Positions 14,916-33,385 of a DNA stretch of 64,000 nt are shown here, one piece after another; position 1 is the stretch's first letter, and every line of letters starts with the position of its first letter. Origin of the DNA: Ignavibacteriales bacterium (GTDB lineage Bacteria; Bacteroidota; Ignavibacteria; Ignavibacteriales; SURF-24); the NCBI GenBank assembly GCA_026390815.1, contig JAPLFH010000055.1, positions 1-64,000 of the forward strand, given 5' to 3'. A program made the translations under genes and the position numbers. The notes under the pieces are model-generated. The model did not search any database. It had not been told where the DNA came from and worked only from the letters and a program-made list of their open reading frames with translations.

Positions 14916-15431
14916 ATGAATTTTAGAATTACAGAATCGGTAAAATCGTTATTCAATTTTAAAAAAGCCCCTCTCCTTGGGAGAGCCTGCCTTGCCGTCA
15001 GGCAGGGGGTTGGGGTGAGGCTGTTTATTATTTTTTTATTAGTATTTATTTCCTGCGGAAAAAAAGAAGAAGTGAAGCTGCAGACTTTTAGTGCGGAAGC
15101 CTTTGCATTTAGTTTGCCGGAAGGCTGGGAAGTAAATGCAACTATACGTGTTAAAGGATTTATGCAGAATAAAGTAAAGGATACTTTCATTGCAAAACTT
15201 GAGTATTCAGTAGATCTTGTAAAACCAAATGGTGAATCCATAAAAGCTCTTGCAAAAGATATTGCTGATGAAGAGAACACAGAAGAGTTTTCCGATCTTC
15301 CCATCGAAGTGCAAATTAATTTAGATGCAAAATATCTTCCAGGTAAGTATAAACTTATTTTTAATATTAAGGATGAACTTTCCGGGCAACAAATAATATC
15401 TGAAAAGGAATTGGAGTTAATTAAACAATAA
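14916..15431 (+). CDS. lipoprotein with palindromic repeat inserted in its N-terminal region
   Basis: A 171-residue protein of unknown function. The lipobox is LLVFISC followed by GKKEE, so it is a predicted lipoprotein with a beta-rich mature domain. The ATG at 14916 has a strong GGAGG site. Residues about 18-34 (KAPLLGRACLAVRQGVGVR region) are encoded by a GC-rich palindromic repeat at 14968-15020, giving an unusually long N-region before the hydrophobic segment RLFIIFLLVF. An alternative start is GTG at 15015, inside the repeat. The gene may be still functional because the repeat keeps the frame open. Confidence 0.65.
   Translation: MNFRITESVKSLFNFKKAPLLGRACLAVRQGVGVRLFIIFLLVFISCGKKEEVKLQTFSAEAFAFSLPEGWEVNATIRVKGFMQNKVKDTFIAKLEYSVDLVKPNGESIKALAKDIADEENTEEFSDLPIEVQINLDAKYLPGKYKLIFNIKDELSGQQIISEKELELIKQ
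14968..15020. repeat. dispersed palindromic GC-rich repeat
   Basis: A GC-rich segment in AT-rich surroundings with nested inverted repeats: CTCTCC with GGGAGAG, CCTGCC with GGCAGG, and outer CCCCTC with the terminal GGGGTGAGG. A related but shorter member lies at 28744-28787, sharing the GGGTTGGGG core. This one lies inside a coding frame. Confidence 0.7.
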
Positions 15432-20398: not shown

Positions 20399-22045
20399 TT
20401 ATTTAAGCAGAACCATCTTTTTTGCATCTGTAAATTTCTCTGTCTGCAATTTATAAATATAAATTCCACTTTCAGCATTTGCCGCATTCCATTCAACATT
20501 AAAATTGCCTGCAGGTAGGTTACCATTTACGAGTGTAGCAATTTCTTTTCCTAAAATATTATAAATCTTAATCGAAACAACACCTGCTTTTTTTATACTG
20601 AAATTGATCTGTGTAGTGGGGTTAAAGGGATTTGGGAAATTTTGTTTGAGAGTATAAGTATCTGGATTTAAAGAATTTTCTTTTTCTACTTCTGATGTAT
20701 TTGGCCATTGAATATCGAAGAAGTTAGTGTTATGGGTAAAGTTCTCCACATAATTCCCCAGATTTCCAGAATTAATTGATAATCTCCAAGCATAATCAGT
20801 TGGTGGAGAGTCAAATAAACCATTGTTATTATTATCGGCAAAGAAATCAATTAAATAATCATGGTTTACCTCTAAACCAGGTAAACTGATTGCAAAATCT
20901 GAAGTTGGAACAGGAAACAATGCAAGTTTACTTATTTCTGATTGACTACCTGCATCTAATAATCGTATTCCCATCATCTCGCCTATATGAGGAACCATTT
21001 CGGAAAGATTAAGTGTAAATAGATATTTCCAATTGATGTTTGTAAAATTTGTATTATGTGCAAAGTTAACGGTTGCATCATTAAAGCTGTTGTTGAACTT
21101 TATCTCCCAAGCGTGGTCTGTGGGTAGTGCGTCGTACAAACCATTATTATTAAAGTCTACATAGAATTCAACTTTGTAATTAGCGCGGTCTGACCAGAGT
21201 ACAGGAAGATTAATATTAAAGTCAGCGCTTGGTATAGATTCAATTCTCGTTCTACCAAATTCAATTTGTGTTGAATCATCAATAACACGTAATTCCAAAA
21301 GTTGACCAATATGAGGTGTCATTCCTGTGAATTGCATTGTAAGCAAATACTTCCATTTGATATCTGTAAAATTTGTATTATGAGCAAAGTTTATAACATC
21401 ATTACCAACTGCATTGTTCAACTCAAGTCTCCAGGCATGATCTAATGGGGGAGCATCATATTTGCCATTATTATTGTGGTCCACATAAAAATCGATCCAG
21501 TAGCTATGACCAATTTGAATATTATTTATTGGAATATTAAAATCTGCAACTGAAATTGGATTTACAACCGAACGACTAACCTCCATAAAATCAGATTTAT
21601 CAACAACACGTAGTTCTAATTTTTCTCCAATATGCGGAGTCATTTCTGTAAACTGAACTGTAAGAGTTGTGGTTTGCATGCTTGCAGGATCACCGGGTAA
21701 GGATATTAATGAAGAATTGCCCGGGTTCGATTGTCCGGTTGCCCATTTTCCGGAAGGATCCTGTAATTCGTCGCCGTTAGATATCCCATCACCATCGGCA
21801 TCGTAACTTGCAAGTATTGGTCCCCACATTACTTGCCCGGTTGCACCCGGTATGGATAGGAATTTTGTTTCAACCATTTTTCCAAAAGAATTTCTTGGTC
21901 CACCTCCGTTTGGATCTACATGACAGTTTGCACAGGCATTAACGTTTCCATTTGGTATCTGGTCCACCCTAAACGGTCGCGCTAAAACTGGATTTATTAA
22001 AAGTAATGATACAACAATTATAATTAGATGCTCAGAAATATTCAT
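20399..22045 (-). CDS. CXXCH-containing surface protein with three internal repeats and T9SS sorting domain
   Basis: A 548-residue exported protein. After the signal peptide (to about residue 22) comes a single haem-binding motif CANCH (38-42), then an Asp-rich calcium-loop stretch DADGDGISNGDEL (82-94). Three tandem units of about 107 residues follow (about 128-234, 235-342, 343-447), each starting with an MTPHIG or MVPHIG motif and containing a loop like DHNNNGKYDAPP and ending NFAHNTNFTDIKW. The end is a T9SS type A domain (LKQNFPNPFNPTTQINF, ending KKMVLLK). A surface cytochrome-like electron-transfer or metal-binding role is inferred. It is the last gene of a four-gene operon. Confidence 0.85.
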   Translation of the reverse strand: MNISEHLIIIVVSLLLINPVLARPFRVDQIPNGNVNACANCHVDPNGGGPRNSFGKMVETKFLSIPGATGQVMWGPILASYDADGDGISNGDELQDPSGKWATGQSNPGNSSLISLPGDPASMQTTTLTVQFTEMTPHIGEKLELRVVDKSDFMEVSRSVVNPISVADFNIPINNIQIGHSYWIDFYVDHNNNGKYDAPPLDHAWRLELNNAVGNDVINFAHNTNFTDIKWKYLLTMQFTGMTPHIGQLLELRVIDDSTQIEFGRTRIESIPSADFNINLPVLWSDRANYKVEFYVDFNNNGLYDALPTDHAWEIKFNNSFNDATVNFAHNTNFTNINWKYLFTLNLSEMVPHIGEMMGIRLLDAGSQSEISKLALFPVPTSDFAISLPGLEVNHDYLIDFFADNNNNGLFDSPPTDYAWRLSINSGNLGNYVENFTHNTNFFDIQWPNTSEVEKENSLNPDTYTLKQNFPNPFNPTTQINFSIKKAGVVSIKIYNILGKEIATLVNGNLPAGNFNVEWNAANAESGIYIYKLQTEKFTDAKKMVLLK

Positions 22046-22077
22046 TTATTTTCTTCCTATTTATGTTTTATTAAGTA

Positions 22078-22956
22078 TTAAAATTTTAACAACCTTGTTA
22101 TATTAAATCCAATATGCCAGTCCCCGGAGTTAAAGGAATTATCAGTTCCTGCTAAATATTGAGAAGGATTTAATTGAGAACTATTAGTTAATATAATTTT
22201 AAAGAAATGTCCGCCGGTATTTAATTCAAACCCAAAAGCAACCGGATTATTTTGTTGCCTGAATCCGGTAACAGTTGGATTCCATTCGAATAACAATCCG
22301 ATGGAATTGGAAACATAATAAGTAATGTAAGTTCCAAATGTAAATGAATATTGTTTTGCATTAGTATAGATATAACTGTTATATAAATAAGATGGGACTA
22401 AACCTACGCCTAATTTTTTTGCAAAGAGAGTATTAAAAATCAACTGACCATAATATTGAAAGTTTTTAGAATCACCATCTGAGCGCCCTGGTACCGGGTT
22501 TTGCAGATTTGAATTCCAGGCTCCTCCAACCCTGCCTCCAATAATTGTTGGCAAGATATCATTTGGAATTTGTACAAAAATCTGCTTAACCCATAAATCA
22601 ACATTGTTGTTTAAATTACTTCTTCCAAAGCAAATGAACATACTGTTAGTTGGTGCATAACCGAAAGCAATTCGCATATTTACAGGTCCATCAAATCCAT
22701 AGAATTTTTTATATCCACTTTTAATAGTTGGAATAAATCTGTGCGATATTTCAAATTCAAAATCCCCTTTTTGCAATGTTTCAATTGTTGGAAGATTAAT
22801 TGATTGAGTTGATCTGAACAAATGCAAATCAAGTTCTTCCTTTGGTTCACTCTTTTGCCAAGATGGGTGATCATCCTGTCCAAAACTAATTATTGGCAGG
22901 AGAAATAAAATTGTAAAAATATTTTTTAATAAAGAGAGAAAATTTTTCTGTTTCAT
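22078..22956 (-). CDS. DUF5777 family outer-membrane beta-barrel protein
   Basis: A 292-residue exported protein with a signal peptide (about 1-26, ending ISFGQ). Family-like features are LFRSTQSINLPTIETLQKGDFEFEISHRF, spread across about residues 47-75, and FYGFDGPVNMRIAFGYAPTNSMFIC after that. The rest is amphipathic beta strands ending ITRLLKF. DUF5777 barrels are typically found beside YceI and c-type cytochromes in Bacteroidota-group genomes, as here. Function is unknown; an outer-membrane conduit or partner for the redox proteins is inference. It lies 17 bases downstream of yceI. Confidence 0.8.
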   Translation of the reverse strand: MKQKNFLSLLKNIFTILFLLPIISFGQDDHPSWQKSEPKEELDLHLFRSTQSINLPTIETLQKGDFEFEISHRFIPTIKSGYKKFYGFDGPVNMRIAFGYAPTNSMFICFGRSNLNNNVDLWVKQIFVQIPNDILPTIIGGRVGGAWNSNLQNPVPGRSDGDSKNFQYYGQLIFNTLFAKKLGVGLVPSYLYNSYIYTNAKQYSFTFGTYITYYVSNSIGLLFEWNPTVTGFRQQNNPVAFGFELNTGGHFFKIILTNSSQLNPSQYLAGTDNSFNSGDWHIGFNITRLLKF

Positions 22957-22973
22957 TAATGTCTTTCCTTAAT

Positions 22974-23543
22974 TTATTTTTTTACTTCCTTTATATAGAA
23001 ATCCAGAACTAATTTCATTGTGTTACTTATTTTCATGAACATTAACTTGGGTACTTCAATATTGTAATCAGTAAGTTGAACTTCAAAGTAAGCTTTGACT
23101 CTGTACCCTCCATCCACAGGAAACATATTGGCATTAACCTTTAATGGTTTTGTAACGCCATGAATAAACATTGCACCATCAAGTGTAACTTTAATTTCAT
23201 TCTCAGAAATCTTATCAACATAGACGATTGACCCTTTGAAACTAGTCATCGGAAAACGATCAGTTTGAAGATAATTTTCGCGCATATGCCTGTTACGCAG
23301 CCCTATTCCAGTATCGATAGTTCTTAAATCAACTTCAAAGTATAATTCGTTTTTGTTAAGAATATCTGATCCCTGGTAGAATAAATAGCCATCAATATTA
23401 TTAGTTACACCTTCAAAGTCTTCAATGGAAGCGTTTGAAATAAACTTAACTAAATTTTTTTTCGATTTATCAACCTGATACTCGGTAGAAAAAATCGATG
23501 ATGAAACTGCAAACAGTAAAATAGTGGTTAAGAGAGTTTTCAT
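22974..23543 (-). CDS. YceI family protein
   Basis: A 189-residue periplasmic lipocalin-like protein with a signal peptide (MKTLLTTILLFAVSSSIFS). Family features are YQVDKSKKNLVKFI, MRENYLQTDRFPMTSFKG at about 90-107, FIHGVTKPLKV and YFEVQLTDYNIE. YceI proteins bind isoprenoid or amphiphilic ligands in the cell envelope. The start at 23543 follows GGAAAAATT and leaves a 10-base gap to the preceding gene; an open frame to 23570 overlaps that gene and is less likely. It is the second gene of the operon. Confidence 0.93.
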   Translation of the reverse strand: MKTLLTTILLFAVSSSIFSTEYQVDKSKKNLVKFISNASIEDFEGVTNNIDGYLFYQGSDILNKNELYFEVDLRTIDTGIGLRNRHMRENYLQTDRFPMTSFKGSIVYVDKISENEIKVTLDGAMFIHGVTKPLKVNANMFPVDGGYRVKAYFEVQLTDYNIEVPKLMFMKISNTMKLVLDFYIKEVKK

Positions 23544-23553
23544 AATTTTTCCT

Positions 23554-23994
23554 TTATTCATTAAGAGCACCTTTATTTATCCATACCCCAAGTGAATCAA
23601 TTAAATACTGATTTATTTTTCCTGCTGCCGGCATTTGAAATGAATAGTTGTAGCTAAGCGCTCTATAAACAAGGCTTCCGTCTTTGTTGCCGGGTACTAC
23701 TCTTTTAAATGAAGGGTAGAGAACACTCAATTTGTTTACTAGGTTTGAATACGCCTTACCTTCAGACAGATCTAAATTTCCCTGGGGATTTAATCCTGCA
23801 TGGCAGCCTGCATAAGCACACAAAGGAGTGAAAATATTTTTTTGTAATTCGCTGAACTTACTTAGCTGAACGGTTTGTGGGATAACTGGTTTCATATCAT
23901 TTTCAGATACAATTTTATCTGCGCAGCCTGAAAAAAACAAAGTAATAAGGCTGGTAAAAAACAAGGAGCTGAAGATATTTTTTTTCAGTAGCAT
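23554..23994 (-). CDS. lipoprotein with CX4CH haem-type motif
   Basis: A 146-residue lipoprotein. The lipobox is LITLFFSGC followed by ADK. The motif CAYAGCH near residue 68 is a CX4CH variant of the c-type haem site, in the context FTPLCAYAGCHAG. This resembles the planctomycete-type cytochrome c-like modules (GCH, GNLDLSEGKAYSNLV, SFQMP). The Met in SFQMPAAG could be the distal haem ligand. The start at 23994 follows GGAG. It opens the minus-strand operon with YceI, DUF5777 and the CXXCH surface protein. Whether haem is attached to the widened spacing is unproven. Confidence 0.8.
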   Translation of the reverse strand: MLLKKNIFSSLFFTSLITLFFSGCADKIVSENDMKPVIPQTVQLSKFSELQKNIFTPLCAYAGCHAGLNPQGNLDLSEGKAYSNLVNKLSVLYPSFKRVVPGNKDGSLVYRALSYNYSFQMPAAGKINQYLIDSLGVWINKGALNE

Positions 23995-24551
23995 AATTCT
24001 CCATTCTAAGTGATTAAATATTTCCTTTAGGAAAAATGTATTTGTATTATAAAACAAAATGCAAGTGATATTTCTATAACAATAATAATTCCCAAAAAGT
24101 TTGATAAAAATATAAGTTGTGATAAATATTGATTAAGCTAACATTAGCAGCTGAAGTAAATTTATACTTTAGCCACAAAAATAATTCTGAAGTTGAATCA
24201 AATTTGTTAACACAAATCCGAGAAAAAATCTGAAATTAATTTTAAATAAAAAAAAGAAATGCTTTACAATGTAAACTTCATTTACTAATTTGCCGTACCG
24301 AAAATTATATTTCAATGTTAAATTGAGGATGAACGGAAATTAGAAACTGGTTAATTGCTTAATTAAGCATAAGAACTCTTAATACTCCAAAATTAAAAAC
24401 AGTTGAAAATTCAAATAATTTATGAATTAATTAAGCAAAGAAGATACTGAACGTTCACAATTTTTTTTCTAAAAAACTCTTGCGAATGATTTTCTTTAAA
24501 TCTATTTTTAAGCCATCTAAATTCTATTATATCAAATAAGGAATTTACAAA
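23995..24551. other. intergenic region with palindrome and repeated TTAATTAAGC
   Basis: About 560 bases between divergent transcription units, very AT-rich, with no gene seen. It contains the palindrome GCTTAATTAAGC at 24357-24368 and a second TTAATTAAGC at 24427-24436, a spacing of 68 bases. These could be operators for the downstream lipoprotein gene, or chance in AT-rich DNA. Confidence 0.4.
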
Positions 24552-25469
24552 ATGATGAAAAAGCTACTACTGGGTCTTACTGTTCTACTGTTTGTTTTTG
24601 CTGGTTGCAAGAATAATGATTTGAGCACATCGAACGATACTGATTTTGATTCTGATATTGTTCTTAATCTTCAAAGCATCCCCACCTTAAATGACACACT
24701 TAAATACCAGGTATGGTTTTACTTTGATGATAATGGAGCGACCAAACCTGTAAAAATTGGTGTACTAAAACCTGATGCAAATGGAAATGTTACGGATGCA
24801 GCTTTCTCTGCACATTTATATGATGTAAAGAGAGCAAAGTATTTTGTTCTATCTGTTGAACGAAATGTAAATGATACCTTAATAACATCTCCAAGTGCCA
24901 CACGTATTTTAGGTGGCACTATGCTTGGTAATGATGCTGAACTTGTTTTTACCAGCAACCTCTCAACTCTTCCTAATTTTAATAATATATTAGGTAAGTA
25001 CACATTGTTTACTCCAACCGATGTAACTAAGAATAAATTAAACGGTGTTTGGTTTCTTGATTACAAAAGCGACAGCTTAAAAGAAGGTTTAAAACTTGCA
25101 AAGTTACCTGCTGGTTGGAAGTATGAAGGTTGGGTTGTTAAAGATTCCAAAGTATTATCAACTGGACCATTCATTGCATCTAATGCTAAAGATGATAGCA
25201 ATAAGTATTGTGGTGCTGGAACAGTACCATCATTTCCCGGAGAAGATTTCTTAACCAACGCTCCTGCTGGATTTACTTTTCCATTAGATTTAAGCGGTGC
25301 ATCAATTTATATTTCTGTTGAAAGCGGTATTAAACTATTTGCACCTGGCAGCATAAAGATTTTAAGTGCAGATGTTCCAACCTCTGCAACACCGCAAACT
25401 ACTTATGATCTGAAGGTAACCAAGGTTAATCTTCCAGCGGGAAGTGTTAAAATAAAAGTAAAAATATAG
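24552..25469 (+). CDS. lipoprotein, weakly similar to anti-sigma-K (RskA) type domains
   Basis: A 305-residue predicted lipoprotein. The lipobox is LLFVFAGC followed by KNNDLS. The beta-rich mature part carries KLPAGWKYEGWVV and STGPFIASNAKDD, which look like the C-terminal extracytoplasmic domain of RskA-type proteins, but there is no cytoplasmic anti-sigma helix, so a regulatory function is not supported. Two ATGs in a row begin the gene, after AAGGAAT. It precedes the TonB-receptor gene by about 140 bases and may belong to the same locus. Confidence 0.65.
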   Translation: MMKKLLLGLTVLLFVFAGCKNNDLSTSNDTDFDSDIVLNLQSIPTLNDTLKYQVWFYFDDNGATKPVKIGVLKPDANGNVTDAAFSAHLYDVKRAKYFVLSVERNVNDTLITSPSATRILGGTMLGNDAELVFTSNLSTLPNFNNILGKYTLFTPTDVTKNKLNGVWFLDYKSDSLKEGLKLAKLPAGWKYEGWVVKDSKVLSTGPFIASNAKDDSNKYCGAGTVPSFPGEDFLTNAPAGFTFPLDLSGASIYISVESGIKLFAPGSIKILSADVPTSATPQTTYDLKVTKVNLPAGSVKIKVKI

Positions 25470-25608
25470 TTTTTGTTTTTACGGTTTTAATTTGAAAATA
25501 ATAAATTTTAGGTCGATGCAGAATTTTTTAGAAAAATCTAATTTAATTAAGCCCTGTTTCCAAAGATTCTGCCAGAAATAATCTTCTTATAAATAGGAGA
25601 ATGAAAAG

Positions 25609-28600
25609 ATGAGATTATTGTTACAAACCTTGTTGATCGCACTCATACTAATAACTGCTGATGTATTTGCACAATATGGAAAGATAGCCGGATATATAAA
25701 GGATGGTAAAACCGGTGAGGCTTTGGTTGGTGCAAACGTTATTGTGGAGGGCACACCATTAGGTGCTGCTACTAATCTTGATGGATATTATGCAATAGTG
25801 AATGCTACACCGGGTACTTACACAATAAAAGTTTCACTTATTGGATATAATTCATCATCAGTGGTTGGAACCAGAGTCAACATCGATCAAACAACAGAAT
25901 TAAATGTTACGTTAAATGAATCTTCAATAACAACTGCAGAGGTTGTTATTGTAGCAACTCAACCTGTTGTTCAAAAAGACGTTTCTTACAGCAGAGTTAA
26001 CTTAAATATTGAAGAGATCCAAAACCTGCCAGTAGTTAGTGCAGCAAGAATAATTGGTTTGCAGGCTGGTATTCAAGCTGGTGCTTCTGGTCCACTTATT
26101 CGTGGTGGCTCAGCAGATCAAAGTGCATTTATGTTGAATGGTTTAACTCTTAGAGATGAAAGAGATAACACACCATATACCGGTATTAGTTTTACTTCAA
26201 TTGAAGATATTCAAATCCAGACTGGTGGTTTTAATGCTGAATATGGAAACATCAGGGCTGGTCTAATAACTGCAACAACTAAAGAAGGTAAAAAGGATAG
26301 ATATTCGGTAAGCATTCTTGGAAGGTATAGCCCGATCGCACAGAAACATTTTGGACATTCGCCAAATGATATCGAATCCTACTGGGTTAAACCTTACGTG
26401 GATCCATCAGTATGTTGGACGGGGACTCAAAACGGTGCCTGGGATGAATTTAAACAAAAACAATTTCCACAATTTGAAGGCTGGATTTCTATTGCAGAAA
26501 AAACTTTAAAAAATAATGATCCTAATGATGATCTTACTCCTCAAGCTGCCCAGCGTGTTTATCTTTGGCAGTTTAGAAGATTGATTGATATCAGACAGCC
26601 AGATTATGATATTGATGCAACAGTTGCCGGACCTGTGCCTGGTGGAAAATATTTAGGCGATCTTAGATTTGCCGCCTCTTACCGTCAGTCTCAAAACATG
26701 TTACTAATACCATTAGCAACAGATTGGTACAGAGACTTTAACTTCCAGGGTAAAGTAACTTCTGATATTTATAAAGGGATGAAGTTATCATTCGACATTT
26801 TATTTGGCGAACAACGCGGAACCAATATTACTCGATCCGGTGGTCCTGGTATTTTCTCTTCAACCAGCGGTGTTGCTTCTGTGATGAATAACGAGCAATA
26901 TACAAATTCCAGAATTTTTTCACCTTCATATTTTTCCCCTTCGGTAGTTAAGAGAGATATGCAAGGACTTAAATTTACACACGCACTTAGCTCTACAACA
27001 TTCTATGAATTTTCTTTAAGCAGATTTGCATCTAACTACAGCACAGTTACTGATAGATGGCGCGATACTTCTATGATTTACAAGTTTGGAAATAATTATT
27101 ACATAGATGAAGCTCCATTTGGAATGTTTGATGGATCTTACAAAGTTGCAACTGGTATAAATGGATTGAGAACTACAATCGGTTTTGGAGATTCCAGGGA
27201 CACCAGTAAAACTGCAACTTATACTGCTAAATTCGATTTTGTTAGCCAATTAGATAAATATAATCAGATTAAAACTGGTTTTGAATTTGTATATAGTGAT
27301 AACAATGTTAACTATTGGACTTATGATAAATTTTTGCCAACATCAATCTCTCAATCCACCTGGCATAAGTATCCTGTTAGAGGTGCTATTTATGCACAGG
27401 ATAAATTGGAATTTGAAGGTATGATTGCCAACGTTGGTGTTCGCTTGGATTACGCAAATGCAGGTGGCGATTGGTATGATTATGATACTTTTACAAGCGC
27501 CTTTTCAGCAGAAAATTCAAGCAATATAAATGAATTATTAACTAAATCTCCCACAAAAAAAATACTTAATGTAAGTCCGCGTTTAGGTGTTGCATTCCCT
27601 ATTTCAGAAAACAGTAAATTATTCTTTAACTACGGACATTTCCGTCAAATGCCGGATCCAAACAACTTGTACTTATTAAGAATTCCTGCATTCTTAAAAA
27701 ATGTTACCCGTATTGCAGATCCTAATAATCCTTTACCAAGGACAATTCAATATGAGTTAGGTTTCGAACAAAACTTGATAGATCAATTCTTAATTCGTCT
27801 GGCTGGTTTTTATAAAGATAATTCACTTCAATCATATTTAGTTAGTTATGTTAGCAGAGATAGCAAGGTAAGTTACTCTGTTTCCAGACCAAACTCTTAT
27901 TCAGATATTAGAGGCTTTGAAGCTACAGTAACAAAGAATAGAGGTAATTGGATCCAGGGTTTTGTCAATTATACTTATCAGGTTACTACTTCTGGTCATT
28001 TTGGTTTTGCAACTTATTATCAAAATCAAACCGCACAAAGAGCTAATGAAGCTTCATCGCTTGACAGTTATGTAAGTAAACCAAAACCATCTCCCTATGC
28101 AAGGTTTAATGTTGATCTCTTTACTCCACGCGAATTTGGACCAAAGTTCGCCGGTTTCTATCTTTTAGAGGATTGGAGATTGAATTTGCTTGGTGTTTGG
28201 AACTCTGGTGGTTACGATACTTGGGTTGGTGGAGGATCTCTTCCAGGAGTTGTTAATAACGTTCAATGGTTAGATTTTTACAACCTTGATTTAAGATTGA
28301 GCAAGACTTTTAATATTGGTCCCGCTAATATTCAATTCTTTGTTGATGTGAGCAACGTATTTAATTATAAAGATATGAATGATTACGCCTGGTTTAATGG
28401 TAATGATAGACAAACATATTTCAACTCATTACATCTTTCTAAAGATGCATTTGTTGATTTTCCTAAAAATGCTGATGGTACGGCAAAGGTTCCCTGGACA
28501 AATTGGACCAGTAAATTAGAAGACGGAACTCCTACTGCGGGATATGAATATGGTGACGACAGACCAGGCGATTATCGGAAAGGACCTTACATTCCATGGG

Positions 28601-28740
28601 ATCCGAATGCATCTGGACCACAAAAGGAAGAATGGAAGAAAAATAAATCTTATATCGATATGCCTAATCAGGAATATCTTACGTTCTTAAATCCCAGAGA
28701 CATTTTCTGGGGAATAAAAGTGAACTTCGAAATATTTTAG
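25609..28740 (+). CDS. TonB-dependent receptor with N-terminal CarboxypepD_reg-like domain
   Basis: A 1043-residue outer-membrane receptor. In order it shows a signal peptide (to about 22, ending VFAQ), a carboxypeptidase-regulatory-like domain (about 25-110, GYIKDGKTGEALVGANVIV), a plug domain (about 125-225, with LPVVSAARIIGLQ and IRGGSADQSAFMLNG), and a long beta-barrel ending WGIKVNFEIF. This is the architecture of SusC/Oar-like receptors in Bacteroidota relatives. It would import or bind a large ligand using TonB energy. No SusD follows; instead a large exported protein, a PorV-like barrel and a TIG lipoprotein do. The ATG follows GGAGAATGAAAAG. Confidence 0.9.
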   Translation: MRLLLQTLLIALILITADVFAQYGKIAGYIKDGKTGEALVGANVIVEGTPLGAATNLDGYYAIVNATPGTYTIKVSLIGYNSSSVVGTRVNIDQTTELNVTLNESSITTAEVVIVATQPVVQKDVSYSRVNLNIEEIQNLPVVSAARIIGLQAGIQAGASGPLIRGGSADQSAFMLNGLTLRDERDNTPYTGISFTSIEDIQIQTGGFNAEYGNIRAGLITATTKEGKKDRYSVSILGRYSPIAQKHFGHSPNDIESYWVKPYVDPSVCWTGTQNGAWDEFKQKQFPQFEGWISIAEKTLKNNDPNDDLTPQAAQRVYLWQFRRLIDIRQPDYDIDATVAGPVPGGKYLGDLRFAASYRQSQNMLLIPLATDWYRDFNFQGKVTSDIYKGMKLSFDILFGEQRGTNITRSGGPGIFSSTSGVASVMNNEQYTNSRIFSPSYFSPSVVKRDMQGLKFTHALSSTTFYEFSLSRFASNYSTVTDRWRDTSMIYKFGNNYYIDEAPFGMFDGSYKVATGINGLRTTIGFGDSRDTSKTATYTAKFDFVSQLDKYNQIKTGFEFVYSDNNVNYWTYDKFLPTSISQSTWHKYPVRGAIYAQDKLEFEGMIANVGVRLDYANAGGDWYDYDTFTSAFSAENSSNINELLTKSPTKKILNVSPRLGVAFPISENSKLFFNYGHFRQMPDPNNLYLLRIPAFLKNVTRIADPNNPLPRTIQYELGFEQNLIDQFLIRLAGFYKDNSLQSYLVSYVSRDSKVSYSVSRPNSYSDIRGFEATVTKNRGNWIQGFVNYTYQVTTSGHFGFATYYQNQTAQRANEASSLDSYVSKPKPSPYARFNVDLFTPREFGPKFAGFYLLEDWRLNLLGVWNSGGYDTWVGGGSLPGVVNNVQWLDFYNLDLRLSKTFNIGPANIQFFVDVSNVFNYKDMNDYAWFNGNDRQTYFNSLHLSKDAFVDFPKNADGTAKVPWTNWTSKLEDGTPTAGYEYGDDRPGDYRKGPYIPWDPNASGPQKEEWKKNKSYIDMPNQEYLTFLNPRDIFWGIKVNFEIF

Positions 28741-28743
28741 TAA

Positions 28744-28787
28744 CCTCCCCTTCAAACCCTCTTATCATAAAGAGAGGGTTGGGGCGG
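28744..28787. repeat. palindromic repeat after the TonB-receptor gene
   Basis: AACCCTCT (28755-28762) pairs with AGAGGGTT (28773-28780), flanked by CCTCCCC and GGGGCGG. It shares the GGGTTGGGG core with the repeat at 14968-15020. No T-run follows, so it is not a classical terminator; it may trim or stabilise the mRNA between receptor and next gene. Confidence 0.65.
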
Positions 28788-28825
28788 TAAGTAAATATAA
28801 AGTTTGAAAAATTGTAGAGGAAAAA

Positions 28826-30934
28826 ATGAAAATAAGTTTTACTAAAAGAATTATCCCGATGTTAAGTTTGTTGCTATTAGCTGTATTCTTAATGCCGGTT
28901 AGTTCCAAAGCTCAAACCGTGGAAACCAAATGGTTAACGGCTGGCTCGCTTCATAACTGGTATTCATCTATTGGATGTGAAATTGAAGAAGGGCTGCGAT
29001 TGGAACAACAATATGGAATGCGCTGGCCTGCAGTTTATGAACACACAGATAACCAGGCTGCAAAAGCATTATGGATAGCAACTACAAATTTTACAGATGA
29101 AACCGGGGATGTTTATCCCTTCAAAGTAGTTCACGTTGGTCCTCGTGTTAAAGGTTTTGTAGAATTTACTCCAATAAAATTTGAGTTAGTAAGTAAATTT
29201 GAAGCACCACAAGCTTATACAGATGGGCTATTGAGTGAAATTGAACCATCGGATGTAAACCGTGTCGATCCAACGCTTCCGTGCGATAGAATGCTGATTA
29301 ATGTTACTAATACAAAAACCGGCATTACAATGACACGAAAGATTATGCAATGGAGTCAGGAGTTTAATGATAACTACCATATTTTTGAATATACATTAAA
29401 AAATACCGGCAATATAAATGCGGATGATGTTATTGAATTACCGGGTAAAACTTTAACTGGTGTTTATCTTTATCTTCAATGGAGAATTGCTCCTTGTGCA
29501 AACTCCAGATACGAAATTGGAAACGGCACTGGCTGGGGAATGAACACGATGATGGATGCCAGGGGCGATGGTGTTAAGGTTGATCCGGATAATCCGGATG
29601 GATTAAGAGCTCAATTTGCATGGCATGGTCCTTTCCCTGCATTTACAACGTATGATAATTTAGGTGGACCGCTCTGGACAAAAGCTGTTGATGTTTCTGC
29701 AGCAGATACAATTGGAAGACTAGCAGCTCCTCAGTTTGTTGGTGTTGTTACTATTCATGCTGATAAATCAGTTACAGATAGATCAGATGATCCTAATCAG
29801 CCATCAACAACTTCCTACGAAGGTTCAGATGAACCAAATACATCGGGCAATAATGAATATGATAAAAAGAAAAATGAAAGTGAATATGGTTGGATATCCA
29901 AAGGACACAAATCACCTCGTCATGCAGATAAAGCTGATGCTGATGGTGATTTTTCAACAGGAGCTGGAGTAGATCCTGCACTTGGAACACCTGGTGGTTT
30001 CTCCTATGCTAATGGCTACGGTCCATATACTTTAGCACCTGGTGATAGCGTTGTAATTGTAGTTGCAGAAGCTGTAAATGGATTAAGCTGGAACAAATGT
30101 GTTGAATATGGAAGAGAGTATAAAAAAGAATTTACTGCTGCAGGTAGCAACCAGGGATTAAAAGATGCGGCTAACTTGAAAAAAAATAAAAGAGTTCTTT
30201 GGGGAAAAGATTCTTTATTTCTTACTTTTCGCCGTGCAATTGCAAACTACAAATCCGGCTACAATATTCCGGCTTCTCCATTACCTCCTAAAATATTTAA
30301 TGTAAGCTCAGGTGGAGATAGAATTATTCTTAATTGGGAAGTTTTTGAAAGTGATCCGAACCTGCGTGGTTTTGAGGTTTGGAGAGCAGCCGGTAGATAC
30401 GATAGCATTTATACAAAAATATTTGAAACATCAGATGTAAGTGTTAGAAGCTACAACGATTTAACTCCGGTTCGCGGTTTTTCTTATTATTATTATTTAG
30501 TTTCAGTCGGAGATGTAATTCCAGCGGATCCTAACTTAGGAATATGGGCTAAGAAGTTGACAAGCAGCCGATATTATTCTCAAACATACGATCCCGCTAA
30601 CCTAAAAAGACAAGCTGGTACAAGCTTAAGCCAGATTAGAGTTGTTCCTAATCCATTCCATTTATCATCAAGTATTAACGACAGACTTAGATTTAGTGAT
30701 CTTGAAAGAGATAAATTGGCATTCTATAACATACCTGGTGTTTGCACAATAAAGATATACACAGAATTAGGAGAATTGATCGCCACCATCGAACATACTG
30801 ATGGAAGCGGTGATGCTTACTGGTATTCTAATACGTCATCAAACCAAATTGTGGCTCCTGGTGTGTATATAGCCATAGTTGAAGATAAAACTACAGGCGA
30901 AAGAGAAATTATTAAATTCGTTATTGTTAGATAA
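28826..30934 (+). CDS. large exported protein with C-terminal sorting-like domain
   Basis: A 702-residue exported protein of a family I know only as conserved in Ignavibacteria-like genomes. A signal peptide (about 1-30, ending SSKAQ) is followed by a beta-rich body including KWLTAGSLHNWYSSIGCEIEEG (spread over 30-60), an FN3-like segment about 488-570 (WEVFESDPNLRGFEVWRA), and a C-terminal domain with VVPNPFHLSS and CTIKIYTELGELIATI, ending EIIKFVIVR. That end resembles the T9SS type A domain, lacking the usual NYPNPFNP linker. There is no lipobox. In a SusC-like locus it occupies the position of SusD; that comparison is inference. Confidence 0.7.
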   Translation: MKISFTKRIIPMLSLLLLAVFLMPVSSKAQTVETKWLTAGSLHNWYSSIGCEIEEGLRLEQQYGMRWPAVYEHTDNQAAKALWIATTNFTDETGDVYPFKVVHVGPRVKGFVEFTPIKFELVSKFEAPQAYTDGLLSEIEPSDVNRVDPTLPCDRMLINVTNTKTGITMTRKIMQWSQEFNDNYHIFEYTLKNTGNINADDVIELPGKTLTGVYLYLQWRIAPCANSRYEIGNGTGWGMNTMMDARGDGVKVDPDNPDGLRAQFAWHGPFPAFTTYDNLGGPLWTKAVDVSAADTIGRLAAPQFVGVVTIHADKSVTDRSDDPNQPSTTSYEGSDEPNTSGNNEYDKKKNESEYGWISKGHKSPRHADKADADGDFSTGAGVDPALGTPGGFSYANGYGPYTLAPGDSVVIVVAEAVNGLSWNKCVEYGREYKKEFTAAGSNQGLKDAANLKKNKRVLWGKDSLFLTFRRAIANYKSGYNIPASPLPPKIFNVSSGGDRIILNWEVFESDPNLRGFEVWRAAGRYDSIYTKIFETSDVSVRSYNDLTPVRGFSYYYYLVSVGDVIPADPNLGIWAKKLTSSRYYSQTYDPANLKRQAGTSLSQIRVVPNPFHLSSSINDRLRFSDLERDKLAFYNIPGVCTIKIYTELGELIATIEHTDGSGDAYWYSNTSSNQIVAPGVYIAIVEDKTTGEREIIKFVIVR

Positions 30935-30968
30935 AGAGAAATTTTCACTATTAAACGGGTGTGAAATA

Positions 30969-31985
30969 ATGAGAAAATATATTATATCAATTGGCATTAG
31001 CTGTTTATTCTTTACAATTCTAACAACAGCTACATTCGGTCAGCAACAAAAATTAGCCCAGACCGGAATGAAATTTTTAAGCATTGGCAGCGATGCACGA
31101 GCAAGTGCAATGGGCGATGCAGTAACAGCGCTTGAAGGAACTTCCTCCTCTATGTTTTTTAATCCTGCAAGCATGGCGCGTTTAACAGATCTTGTAAGCG
31201 CATCTGTTGGCAATACAAAGTGGATAGCAGATATAAACCATTTATATGGAAGTATCGCTTTTAGTCCATCCCAAGGACAATATGGTGTGTTTGGATTTTT
31301 CTTCCAGACAGTCGATTATGGTGATATGGTTGGAACAATCATTGCTGATAATGAACAAGGTTTTATTGAAACTGGTTTATTCAGCCCATCTGCTTTTGCG
31401 TTTGGAGTTGGATATGCCAAAGCCTTATCAGATAAATTTGCTGTTGGTGGAAACGTTAAATATGTGTATCAGGATTTAGGAAGCGGACTTATTGGTTTAG
31501 CAGGTGATGGTTCTAAAACAGTAGTTAATGCTCGTGCTAATACCTTTGCTTTCGATATCGGAGTGTTATATCATACTGGTTATAAGAGCCTTAATTTTGC
31601 AATGTCTATTAGAAACTTTTCTAAAGAAACAAAATTTGAAAAAGAAAATTTTGAGTTGCCACTTACTTTTAAAGTAGGTATGTCTTTTAATGCGATGGAC
31701 CTCATCGATGTGAATCCGGATATGCACTCCTTATCCTTAAACATAGATGCCGTTCATCCAAGGGATTTTGATCAACAGATTAACATTGGTGCTGAATATT
31801 TATTTATGAAAACCATTGCTTTAAGAGCCGGTTTTTCAACTCCAAATGATGTTCATGATTTTACAGCAGGATTTGGAGTACAGCAAAGAATTTCCGGTAT
31901 TTGGTTAGCAGCAGATTATGGTTATACTCCGTTTACAGATGGTTTCAAAGACGTTCACAGAGTTACAGTGCAATTTGCATTTTAG
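30969..31985 (+). CDS. PorV/PorQ-family outer-membrane protein
   Basis: A 338-residue exported barrel. After the signal peptide (ending ATFGQ) it shows the PorV-family opening GMKFLSIGSDARASAMGDAV and FFNPASMARL, then beta strands and the end HRVTVQFAF. PorV-type proteins carry T9SS cargo to the cell surface. The start is placed at 30969 (MRKYII) because upstream in-frame codons overlap the previous gene and lack a signal peptide. The gene lies 34 bases after the exported-protein gene, consistent with an operon. Confidence 0.82.
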   Translation: MRKYIISIGISCLFFTILTTATFGQQQKLAQTGMKFLSIGSDARASAMGDAVTALEGTSSSMFFNPASMARLTDLVSASVGNTKWIADINHLYGSIAFSPSQGQYGVFGFFFQTVDYGDMVGTIIADNEQGFIETGLFSPSAFAFGVGYAKALSDKFAVGGNVKYVYQDLGSGLIGLAGDGSKTVVNARANTFAFDIGVLYHTGYKSLNFAMSIRNFSKETKFEKENFELPLTFKVGMSFNAMDLIDVNPDMHSLSLNIDAVHPRDFDQQINIGAEYLFMKTIALRAGFSTPNDVHDFTAGFGVQQRISGIWLAADYGYTPFTDGFKDVHRVTVQFAF

Positions 31986-32045
31986 TGTTTAATATAATAG
32001 TTGTAATTAATATATAAATTAGCAACAAATATTTTGGTAAAAAAA

Positions 32046-33323
32046 ATGAAAATGAAATTTTACAATTCAAATTTGATGAAAGTATTGAAAAGCCTTGCAG
32101 CAATAGTTTTGCTTACAACCTTTATTATCGGTTGCAATGAAGAAACAACTGAAAGCCTTTATAAAACTCAACAACCACCGCTGGGCGCCCAGCCAAAAAT
32201 TACAACGCTCAATCCTCCAAGCGAATGCCTTGCAGGTGTTGATTACGTTGAAATCACCGGGGAAAATTTTTCTACGGTGCTTGATGAAAATCTAGTTTAC
32301 TTTGGATCTGCAAGGGCTAAAGTACTGGAAGCTTCTCCCACAAGATTATTAGTAATCGCACCTAACAATCCGAAGGACACCTTGTTTATTAAAGTTACAA
32401 CACTGCATTCTGATTTTTTTAATGATAATCCCCCACAATATAAATTAAGAGTAGCCGCAGGTAATGTGTTTGTAAAGAAGAATAGAAAAATTTTCGCTCT
32501 TACATTTGATAAAGCAGGGAATGCTTACGCATCTAAAACAGAATTAGGTTTAGGTAAAGGCATTGTTAAAATTGAACCGAATGGTACTGAGACAGAGTTT
32601 GCGGATAAAGGAGCTGAAACATTCTTCACATCATTAAAAATAAAAGGAACTGATTCTTTAGTTGGAAGTTGGGGAAGAAAAAAAGCTTTGTTTCTGGTAC
32701 TTAAAGGTATTAAACCAGCAGCCTGGATTACAACTGGGTTAGGTGAAATAATTGATTTTGATTTTGATAATAAAGGATACATTTGGGCTGGTGGAAGTAA
32801 AGCCAATAATAATTTATACAGAATAAAAACCAGTGATAAAACTGTTACACCATTTGGTTTTAGTGGCGAAGTTATTGCATTAAGAGTATTTCAAGGTGCC
32901 GTTTATGTGGCTAACAAGCGCGATGATGTTATTAAAATTTTTAAATATCCAATCACCAATAATGCATTAGGTGCAGAAGAACTTTATTACGATTTTACAC
33001 AGTATTCTACAACAAATTCTATTACAGGAATGACTTTCGCGATAGATGGTACGATGTATCTTACTACTGATGATTTAACCAAACCTATTGTTATGGTAAG
33101 TTCAGATAAAATTGCTTCTGTATTTTTTGAAGTAATTGTTCCTGATGCTATTTTTGCCGGTCCTGTAATTGGTTTAGCATATGGAATTGCTGACGATCTG
33201 TATTTTATAAGAAATGAAATTACTGATCCCGCTACACCAACTACAATTCTTCAAGCGCAGGAAGTAGTTAGAGTAATTACCAAAAAACTTAGCGCTCCAT
33301 ATTATGGACGCGGCGATCTGTAA
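32046..33323 (+). CDS. IPT/TIG-domain lipoprotein with propeller-like region
   Basis: A 425-residue predicted lipoprotein (hydrophobic segment ending FIIGC followed by NEETTES). Residues about 50-135 form an IPT/TIG Ig-like domain (KITTLNPPSECLAGVDYVEITGE region, VYFGSARAKVLEASPTRLLV). The C-terminal part reads as an SMP-30/NHL-type propeller (FDFDNKGYIWAGGSK, VYVANKRDDVIKIFKYP). IPT/TIG lipoproteins of this type are common beside TonB receptors in SusC/D-like loci. The ATG at 32046 was chosen over an upstream TTG. It is the last gene before a strong terminator. Confidence 0.8.
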   Translation: MKMKFYNSNLMKVLKSLAAIVLLTTFIIGCNEETTESLYKTQQPPLGAQPKITTLNPPSECLAGVDYVEITGENFSTVLDENLVYFGSARAKVLEASPTRLLVIAPNNPKDTLFIKVTTLHSDFFNDNPPQYKLRVAAGNVFVKKNRKIFALTFDKAGNAYASKTELGLGKGIVKIEPNGTETEFADKGAETFFTSLKIKGTDSLVGSWGRKKALFLVLKGIKPAAWITTGLGEIIDFDFDNKGYIWAGGSKANNNLYRIKTSDKTVTPFGFSGEVIALRVFQGAVYVANKRDDVIKIFKYPITNNALGAEELYYDFTQYSTTNSITGMTFAIDGTMYLTTDDLTKPIVMVSSDKIASVFFEVIVPDAIFAGPVIGLAYGIADDLYFIRNEITDPATPTTILQAQEVVRVITKKLSAPYYGRGDL

Positions 33324-33348: not shown

Positions 33349-33385
33349 AAACCCCAAGGTAATGGCTTTGGGGTTTTTTATTTTT
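33349..33385 (+). terminator. rho-independent terminator after the TIG lipoprotein
   Basis: AAACCCCAA and TTGGGGTTT pair perfectly (33349-33376), followed by TTTATTTTT. It closes the plus-strand TonB/PorV/TIG locus. Confidence 0.9.

Follow-up and report, generated by a model that had tools for sequence, protein, structure and literature searches.

A TonB receptor, a PorZ-type CTD protein and a PorV-family barrel form a recurrent gene triad in Ignavibacteria: a candidate outer-membrane uptake module without SusD

The genome of an Ignavibacteriales bacterium carries 16 copies of a gene triad coding for a TonB-dependent receptor (TBR), an exported protein that is called E here, and an outer-membrane barrel of the PorV/PorQ family. 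One of these copies lies in the window, that is, the whole stretch of 64,000 nucleotides that was analysed. In the reading we favor, with reasonable though not strong confidence, the triad works as an uptake module of the outer membrane, doing the job of SusC/SusD with another partner and another anchor; the export of E, its contacts, its surface location, its glycan and the import itself are inferred. The initial annotation had likened the window locus to a SusC/D-type locus in which SusD is absent and T9SS-type parts are present. This description is borne out by the lack of SusD genome-wide and by the recurrence of the triad, and it turns out to be far more general than proposed.

In the window, the triad is embedded in a run of five genes on the forward (+) strand (24552-33323), all of them with open reading frames at these coordinates and separated by intergenic gaps of 139, 85, 34 and 48 nt. 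They code for a 305-aa lipoprotein of unknown family (24552-25469, lipobox FVFAGC), the 1043-aa TBR (25609-28740), E with 702 aa (28826-30934), the 338-aa PorV/PorQ-family barrel (30969-31985) and a 429-aa IPT/TIG lipoprotein (32034-33323). The run ends at an intrinsic terminator on the same strand (33349-33376), in which a 12-pair stem is followed by a T tract. Strand, gaps and terminator all match the directional five-gene run originally described. The terminator has the longest stem among the terminator-like sites listed, and such sites are not in excess in the region (6 vs 7.3 in shuffles). The last gene more probably starts with the ATG at 32046 than with the TTG at 32034. Its product has the lipobox FIIGC followed by NEE, and the label of IPT/TIG propeller protein given to it earlier is only half supported: the TIG domain is clear (Pfam, E=2.3e-7), but the propeller part has weak sequence support only (DUF6923, E=0.0065). 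A sequence search with a profile of this lipoprotein gave no credible match to a solved structure.

The genome (4.52 Mb, 99.96% complete) was queried with each protein, followed by ORF maps. Matches to the receptor, to the 702-residue protein and to PorV coincide at the same places, namely C55 (the window copy), C13, C24 (two copies), C43, C54, C41, C7, C57, C39 (two copies), C35, C3, C53, C37 and C33. The order TBR>E>PorV is found in most copies and varies in two, with C13 arranged as PorV>TBR>E>TIG and C3 having two genes that separate E from TBR>PorV. The E proteins of the 16 copies range from 595 to 1270 aa. Distances over the 16 copies are correlated for TBR and PorV (r=0.84), TBR and E (0.87) and E and PorV (0.79; Mantel, each P=5e-5), as expected if the triad duplicates as one unit. 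The 305-aa lipoprotein occurs once in the genome, at the window copy only, and the TIG lipoprotein only at C55 and C13. A fixed unit of five genes was rejected on these grounds, one lipoprotein being single-copy and the other present at 2 of 16 copies; the genes of the five-gene locus are real, but its core is the triad TBR-E-PorV and not all five. Outside the 16 copies, C49 (L034:4316-7360, L205:8319-11369) has an E-like gene of 1014 aa, 46% identical to the E of C7, that is divergent from the gene of a 779-aa TonB receptor and lacks an adjoining PorV gene. This E-like gene without PorV, and the E of C3 that stands apart from its TBR and PorV, count against the uptake module.

Linkage of the three genes extends well beyond this genome. 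At E<=1e-20, E702 has matches in 81 of 395 genomes that were sampled across the GTDB phylum and in 27 of about 40 genomes of the same order, the best at 59% identity over the full length. A contig scan with E702 returned 80 named loci, which come from Ignavibacteriales, Melioribacteraceae, the isolate Stygiobacter electus, Balneolaceae, Rhodothermales, candidate division KSB1 and a Caldithrix sp. MAG. This corrects the earlier idea of how widely the system is spread, as the module is not confined to a single class (KSB1, Caldithrix, Balneolaceae and Rhodothermales also have it). In a set of 120 orthologous loci, 104 of them non-redundant at 95%, TBR lies directly upstream of E in all 101 loci with enough flank, and PorV lies downstream in 109 of 110. 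Likewise, a longer E type (query C39a) matches 97 of 197 genomes of the class (E<=1e-60), and among 20 such loci in other genomes of the class it stands between TBR and PorV in 19 of the 19 complete ones. Paralogous copies with a conserved gene order, for which the initial annotation had proposed to look, thus exist both as 16 triads in the genome itself and in relatives.

Orthologues of the window-subtype E are 38-70% identical, with a mean column identity of 46% (55% for TBR). In 67 well-covered loci of this subtype, the TIG lipoprotein is found in 66, an NHL-propeller protein in 61 and a GHL10 protein in 42, and homologues of the 305-aa lipoprotein are near 13, either upstream of TBR or between E and PorV. 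The TIG lipoprotein is an accessory of the window subtype, and the 305-aa lipoprotein is an optional one. The NHL and GHL10 proteins bear type A tails. Neither adjoins the window copy, and the NHL relative in the window genome stands behind the C54 copy. In relatives (L141 and L138), a C13-type PorV-TBR-E(-TIG) set follows the window-type operon. The window-type and C13-type sets are the closest pair among the paralogues, and for this reason they may go back to an old tandem duplication.

Neither the locus nor any other part of the 4.52-Mb genome contains SusD (PF07980), with a control Bacteroides genome giving matches. PF07980 was found in 213 of the 395 phylum genomes and in 7 of about 40 of the same order, several of them weak, and E702 was not found in the families that make up most of the SusD list (f22, f25, f30, f34, f37 and f48). 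Some genomes have both SusD and the module, and a SusCDE operon has been described in Melioribacter roseus (PMC3534657), so that the relation between SusD and the module is a bias and not strict exclusion. A published study independently reports a scarcity of susCD among the gene clusters of Ignavibacteriales and a distinct catabolic machinery (PMC10576277). We found no description of the module in the open-access literature by searching for PorV together with TonB, SusD or Ignavibacteria, a search that did not cover subscription-only papers and preprints.

TBR meets the definition of a TonB-dependent outer-membrane transporter, as both the Plug and the transporter barrel are present. Pfam places a CarboxypepD_reg-like domain at its N-terminus (CarbopepD_reg_2, E=4e-18) together with the Plug (E=4e-7), and the AlphaFold model (pLDDT 84) matches PirA, Cir, BtuB and FhuA with Z of 31-38 over 516-646 residues (VIA Z 38 to PirA and 35 to BtuB). 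No solved-structure match was obtained for the TBR profile by sequence search. TBR is far below the SusC/RagA cut-off (TIGR04056, 59.7 bits vs 368.25, residues 25-441 only). SusC chains were absent among the best 50 fold matches listed, which is not evidence against relatedness.

The window E has no Pfam family and no lipobox, and a sequence search of its profile against solved structures found FN3 domains only. Its AlphaFold2 model, run with 63 orthologues, is of high confidence (pLDDT 91.4, pTM 0.88) and divides the protein into three parts. Residues 28-480 (about) are modelled as a beta-supersandwich with linker helices as in the N-domains of GH94/GH116-type enzymes, with VIA matches to CgsiGP1 (Z 19.1, 252 residues, 3.0 A), TxGH116 (Z 18.6) and cellodextrin phosphorylase (Z 18.3). 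Residues from about 485 to 590 form an FN3 domain. Residues 599-702 (about 104 residues) form a PorZ-type CTD, which matches residues 687-776 of PorZ (5m11) with Z 13.0, 2.1 A and 26% identity. With this fold, and with PF07980 absent, the possibility that the 702-residue protein is a SusD homologue by structure, which would have refuted the initial annotation, was rejected.

By both fold and sequence, the CTD of E is of the PorZ/PorU kind. NCBIfam gives a weak PorZ match at residues 639-702 of the window E and no type A (TIGR04183) match at E<=0.01, and among the 16 E proteins of the genome, 7 match the PorZ model (NF052228, best 3e-10), 3 match PorU and 5 match TIGR04183 weakly (best 8.5e-5). 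In hhalign comparisons of alignments without shared sequences, the CTDs of the longer E and E702 types are alike (E=1e-32), as are their N-domains once the CTDs are removed (E=8e-19), while type A tails are far more distant from the E CTD yet still homologous to it (E=2e-10). PorU and PorZ CTDs are longer (96-108 residues) than cleaved CTDs (67-88) and are not removed (PMC11285876, PMC5562754, PMC10202324), with PorU being held at the surface by PorV and PorZ by PorQ (PMC5562754, PMC11285876, PMC10202324). Non-cleavage of the E CTD is an inference, and cleavage of E by PorU cannot be excluded because the E CTDs are homologous to type A tails and 5 of the 16 match TIGR04183.

The 338-aa barrel belongs to the PorV/PorQ family (NF033709, 203.5 bits vs a cut-off of 90) and is below the equivalog cut-offs of PorV (92 bits, cut-off 250), PorQ (93 bits, cut-off 220) and PorV2 (NCBIfam). 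A profile of the PorV paralogues of this genome matches the solved PorV (6h3i_F, E=2.6e-39). The true PorV and PorQ are encoded elsewhere, at C15 and C47, respectively. SprA was also found, as well as a PorU with a GKLAVIK tail adjoining the true PorV, and together these components indicate that T9SS is present in the genome. Other type A T9SS tails number about 120, which makes a very large T9SS secretome for a single genome of 4.5 Mb. A PorV gene follows E-type tails in 13 of 15 own-genome cases and type A tails in none of 23 (Fisher P=2e-8); since the loci were picked for the module, the tails were compared within loci and not genome-wide. A natural tail swap is seen at C48 (L204:7164-8927), where the E-type N-domain of a 588-aa protein shares 68% identity with residues 10-510 of the C39a E, but the tail is of the canonical type A and neither a TBR nor a PorV gene adjoins it.

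Several copies have enzymes and transporters of sugar metabolism beside them. The C57 copy adjoins GH2 and GH53; GH9, CBM9 and an SSF symporter are near one of the C39 copies (C39a); the C37 copy has a PF10091 glucoamylase and CBM9 together with ORFs that read as ABC permease-like; ABC sugar-binding proteins are beside C41 and the other C39 copy (C39b), with a GntR/UTRA regulator at C41; and PF11175 is beside C33. The CAZyme-linked copies are in the setting of a polysaccharide utilisation locus, with the triad replacing SusCD. No CAZyme adjoins the window copy.

The mechanism we propose builds on what was computed (gene set, linkage, co-duplication, folds, CTD type and the T9SS of the genome); retention of the CTD, contact of E with PorV and with TBR, surface location, the glycan ligand and import are inferred. 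E would cross the outer membrane via T9SS (SprA), and its PorZ/PorU-type CTD, left uncut, would stay docked on the module's own PorV-type barrel. This private barrel would keep E on the cell surface next to TBR, an anchor step supported by analogy with PorU-PorV and PorZ-PorQ and with cognate PorP/SprF barrels (PMC9143113, PMC12618676). The non-catalytic beta-supersandwich of E may then catch a glycan fragment and pass it to TBR, which would import it using TonB energy. For this feeding step the support is analogy with SusCD and BtuBG (PMC10404256), and the supersandwich fold does not prove sugar binding by E. With many paralogous copies, the ligands would be the products of the adjoining polysaccharide-degrading enzymes.

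The module probably works like SusCD. It shares with SusC/SusD (RagA/RagB, the PULs of Bacteroidia) a TonB-dependent transporter with an N-terminal CarboxypepD_reg-like domain, a linked partner (for E, at the surface by inference), in several copies a location beside CAZymes, and many copies per genome. However, it is not a member of SusCD, as the two defining features (SusD and TIGR04056) are unmet: there is no helical lipoprotein lid, TBR falls far short of the SusC/RagA cut-off, the place of the partner is taken by a CTD protein of the T9SS that has a GH-type supersandwich, and a PorV-type barrel always comes in addition. A TonB transporter with a non-SusD surface partner is also seen in BtuB-BtuG of Bacteroides, but BtuG, the lid for vitamin B12, is a lipoprotein with a lipid anchor, whereas E has no lipobox, a T9SS CTD and a dedicated PorV (PMC10404256). 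In PorU-PorV and PorZ-PorQ of the T9SS attachment complex (PMC5562754), a CTD protein of the same type, whose retention in E is inferred, has its own PorV/PorQ-family barrel; the module differs in that the N-part of E is neither a sortase nor a double propeller and in that a TonB transporter is in the unit. Type B CTDs with PorP/SprF-like shuttles are similar in having multiple cargo-specific FadL-family barrels beside their own CTD protein, and PorP/SprF-like barrels, to which the module barrels can be likened, serve as both shuttle and anchor (PMC9143113, PMC12618676). There the barrels are not of the module's PorV/PorQ family, the CTD is not of its PorZ/type A fold and no TonB transporter is included. 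Finally, residues 28-480 of E have their fold in common with the N-terminal supersandwich of GH94, GH116, GH65 and GH15 enzymes (VIA Z 18-19), but E lacks the catalytic (alpha/alpha)6 barrel and instead continues beyond residue 480 with beta structure only (FN3 and CTD).

A role in surface attachment or envelope assembly is unlikely in our judgment, although it deserves consideration. E would here be PorZ-like: it would bind LPS or another surface glycan of the cell itself and offer it to an assembly step, with PorV holding E and TBR importing a signal or recycling glycan. The PorZ-type CTD of E and the presentation of A-LPS by PorZ in P. gingivalis (PMC8545088) fit such a role, but a TonB transporter is found in every complete copy. 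The window subtype is highly conserved (E 46%, TBR 55%), including in lineages like Balneola, is often beside GHL10 (42/67) and has no adjoining CAZyme, which might suggest a housekeeping envelope role and counts against uptake; nevertheless, several copies adjoin dietary-polysaccharide enzymes and sugar transporters, and the multiplicity fits substrate specialisation better than a single assembly task. Somewhat less plausible still is that E is ordinary T9SS cargo, a free or LPS-linked glycan binder for which PorV is a secretion shuttle only, and that E aids TBR outside any complex. For type B CTDs, the pairing of a cargo with its cognate PorP/SprF shuttle is established (PMC12618676, PMC9143113), and the E N-domain of C48 manages with a type A tail and no PorV beside it, but the E CTD resembles the retained PorZ/PorU kind and the triad co-duplicates as a unit. 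Chance gene order, with an ordinary TonB receptor next to unrelated secreted proteins, is refuted by linkage conserved in >100 loci of several classes plus the 16 own-genome copies; nothing outside the window itself speaks for it, and we give it practically no weight.

If the triad is an uptake module, the window subtype probably serves one widespread glycan, as it is conserved in several classes and is partnered by TIG, usually by NHL and often by GHL10. Given GHL10, our guess is that this ligand is a housekeeping glycan, possibly of peptidoglycan type. DigH is presumably a member of GHL10. It acts on denuded peptidoglycan glycans (PMC12288456).

Ignavibacteriales degrade polysaccharides although susCD is reportedly scarce in them (PMC10576277), and the triad is a concrete and widespread candidate for the importer. 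We are evenly divided on the broader claim that it is a third architecture for glycan import besides SusCD and BtuBG-like lipoprotein-lid systems, in which a T9SS-delivered, enzyme-derived binder held permanently by PorV feeds a TonB transporter, and that it serves Ignavibacteria as their chief means of polysaccharide import and also occurs in Balneolaceae, Rhodothermales, KSB1 and Caldithrix. If true, this would account for polysaccharide use largely without SusD in these groups. Machines for nutrient import could then count T9SS CTD proteins among their permanent subunits, each such protein having a PorV of its own, and this would also explain why the PorV/PorQ families of these genomes are large. 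In addition, TBR-E-PorV offers a simple marker for polysaccharide loci that are overlooked by SusCD-based predictors.

The gap between TBR and E contains a GC-rich hairpin on the + strand (28745-28787, about) with a folding energy of -24.4 kcal/mol (z = -4.1, 0 of 200 shuffles as good) and no Rfam match. The palindrome noticed earlier is therefore real, but its suggested role in setting the mRNA ratio was rejected as a conserved expression control, since only 7 of 116 orthologous TBR-E gaps (median 17 nt) are comparably structured. GC-rich, palindromic sequence resembling it is also present at 15003 and in other loci, so that the hairpin is probably a dispersed REP-like palindrome and not a conserved part. 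Upstream of the operon in several genomes of the same order is a conserved LuxR-type response regulator of 212 aa (L084:4392-5030, L096:16213-16851 and L098:17361-17999), a candidate regulator of the window subtype. In the window itself, a minus-strand run (20399-24057) is divergent from the TBR operon and codes for a 548-aa protein with Temptin_C and a type A tail, a DUF5777 barrel, a YceI protein and a lipoprotein with a CAYAGCH motif.
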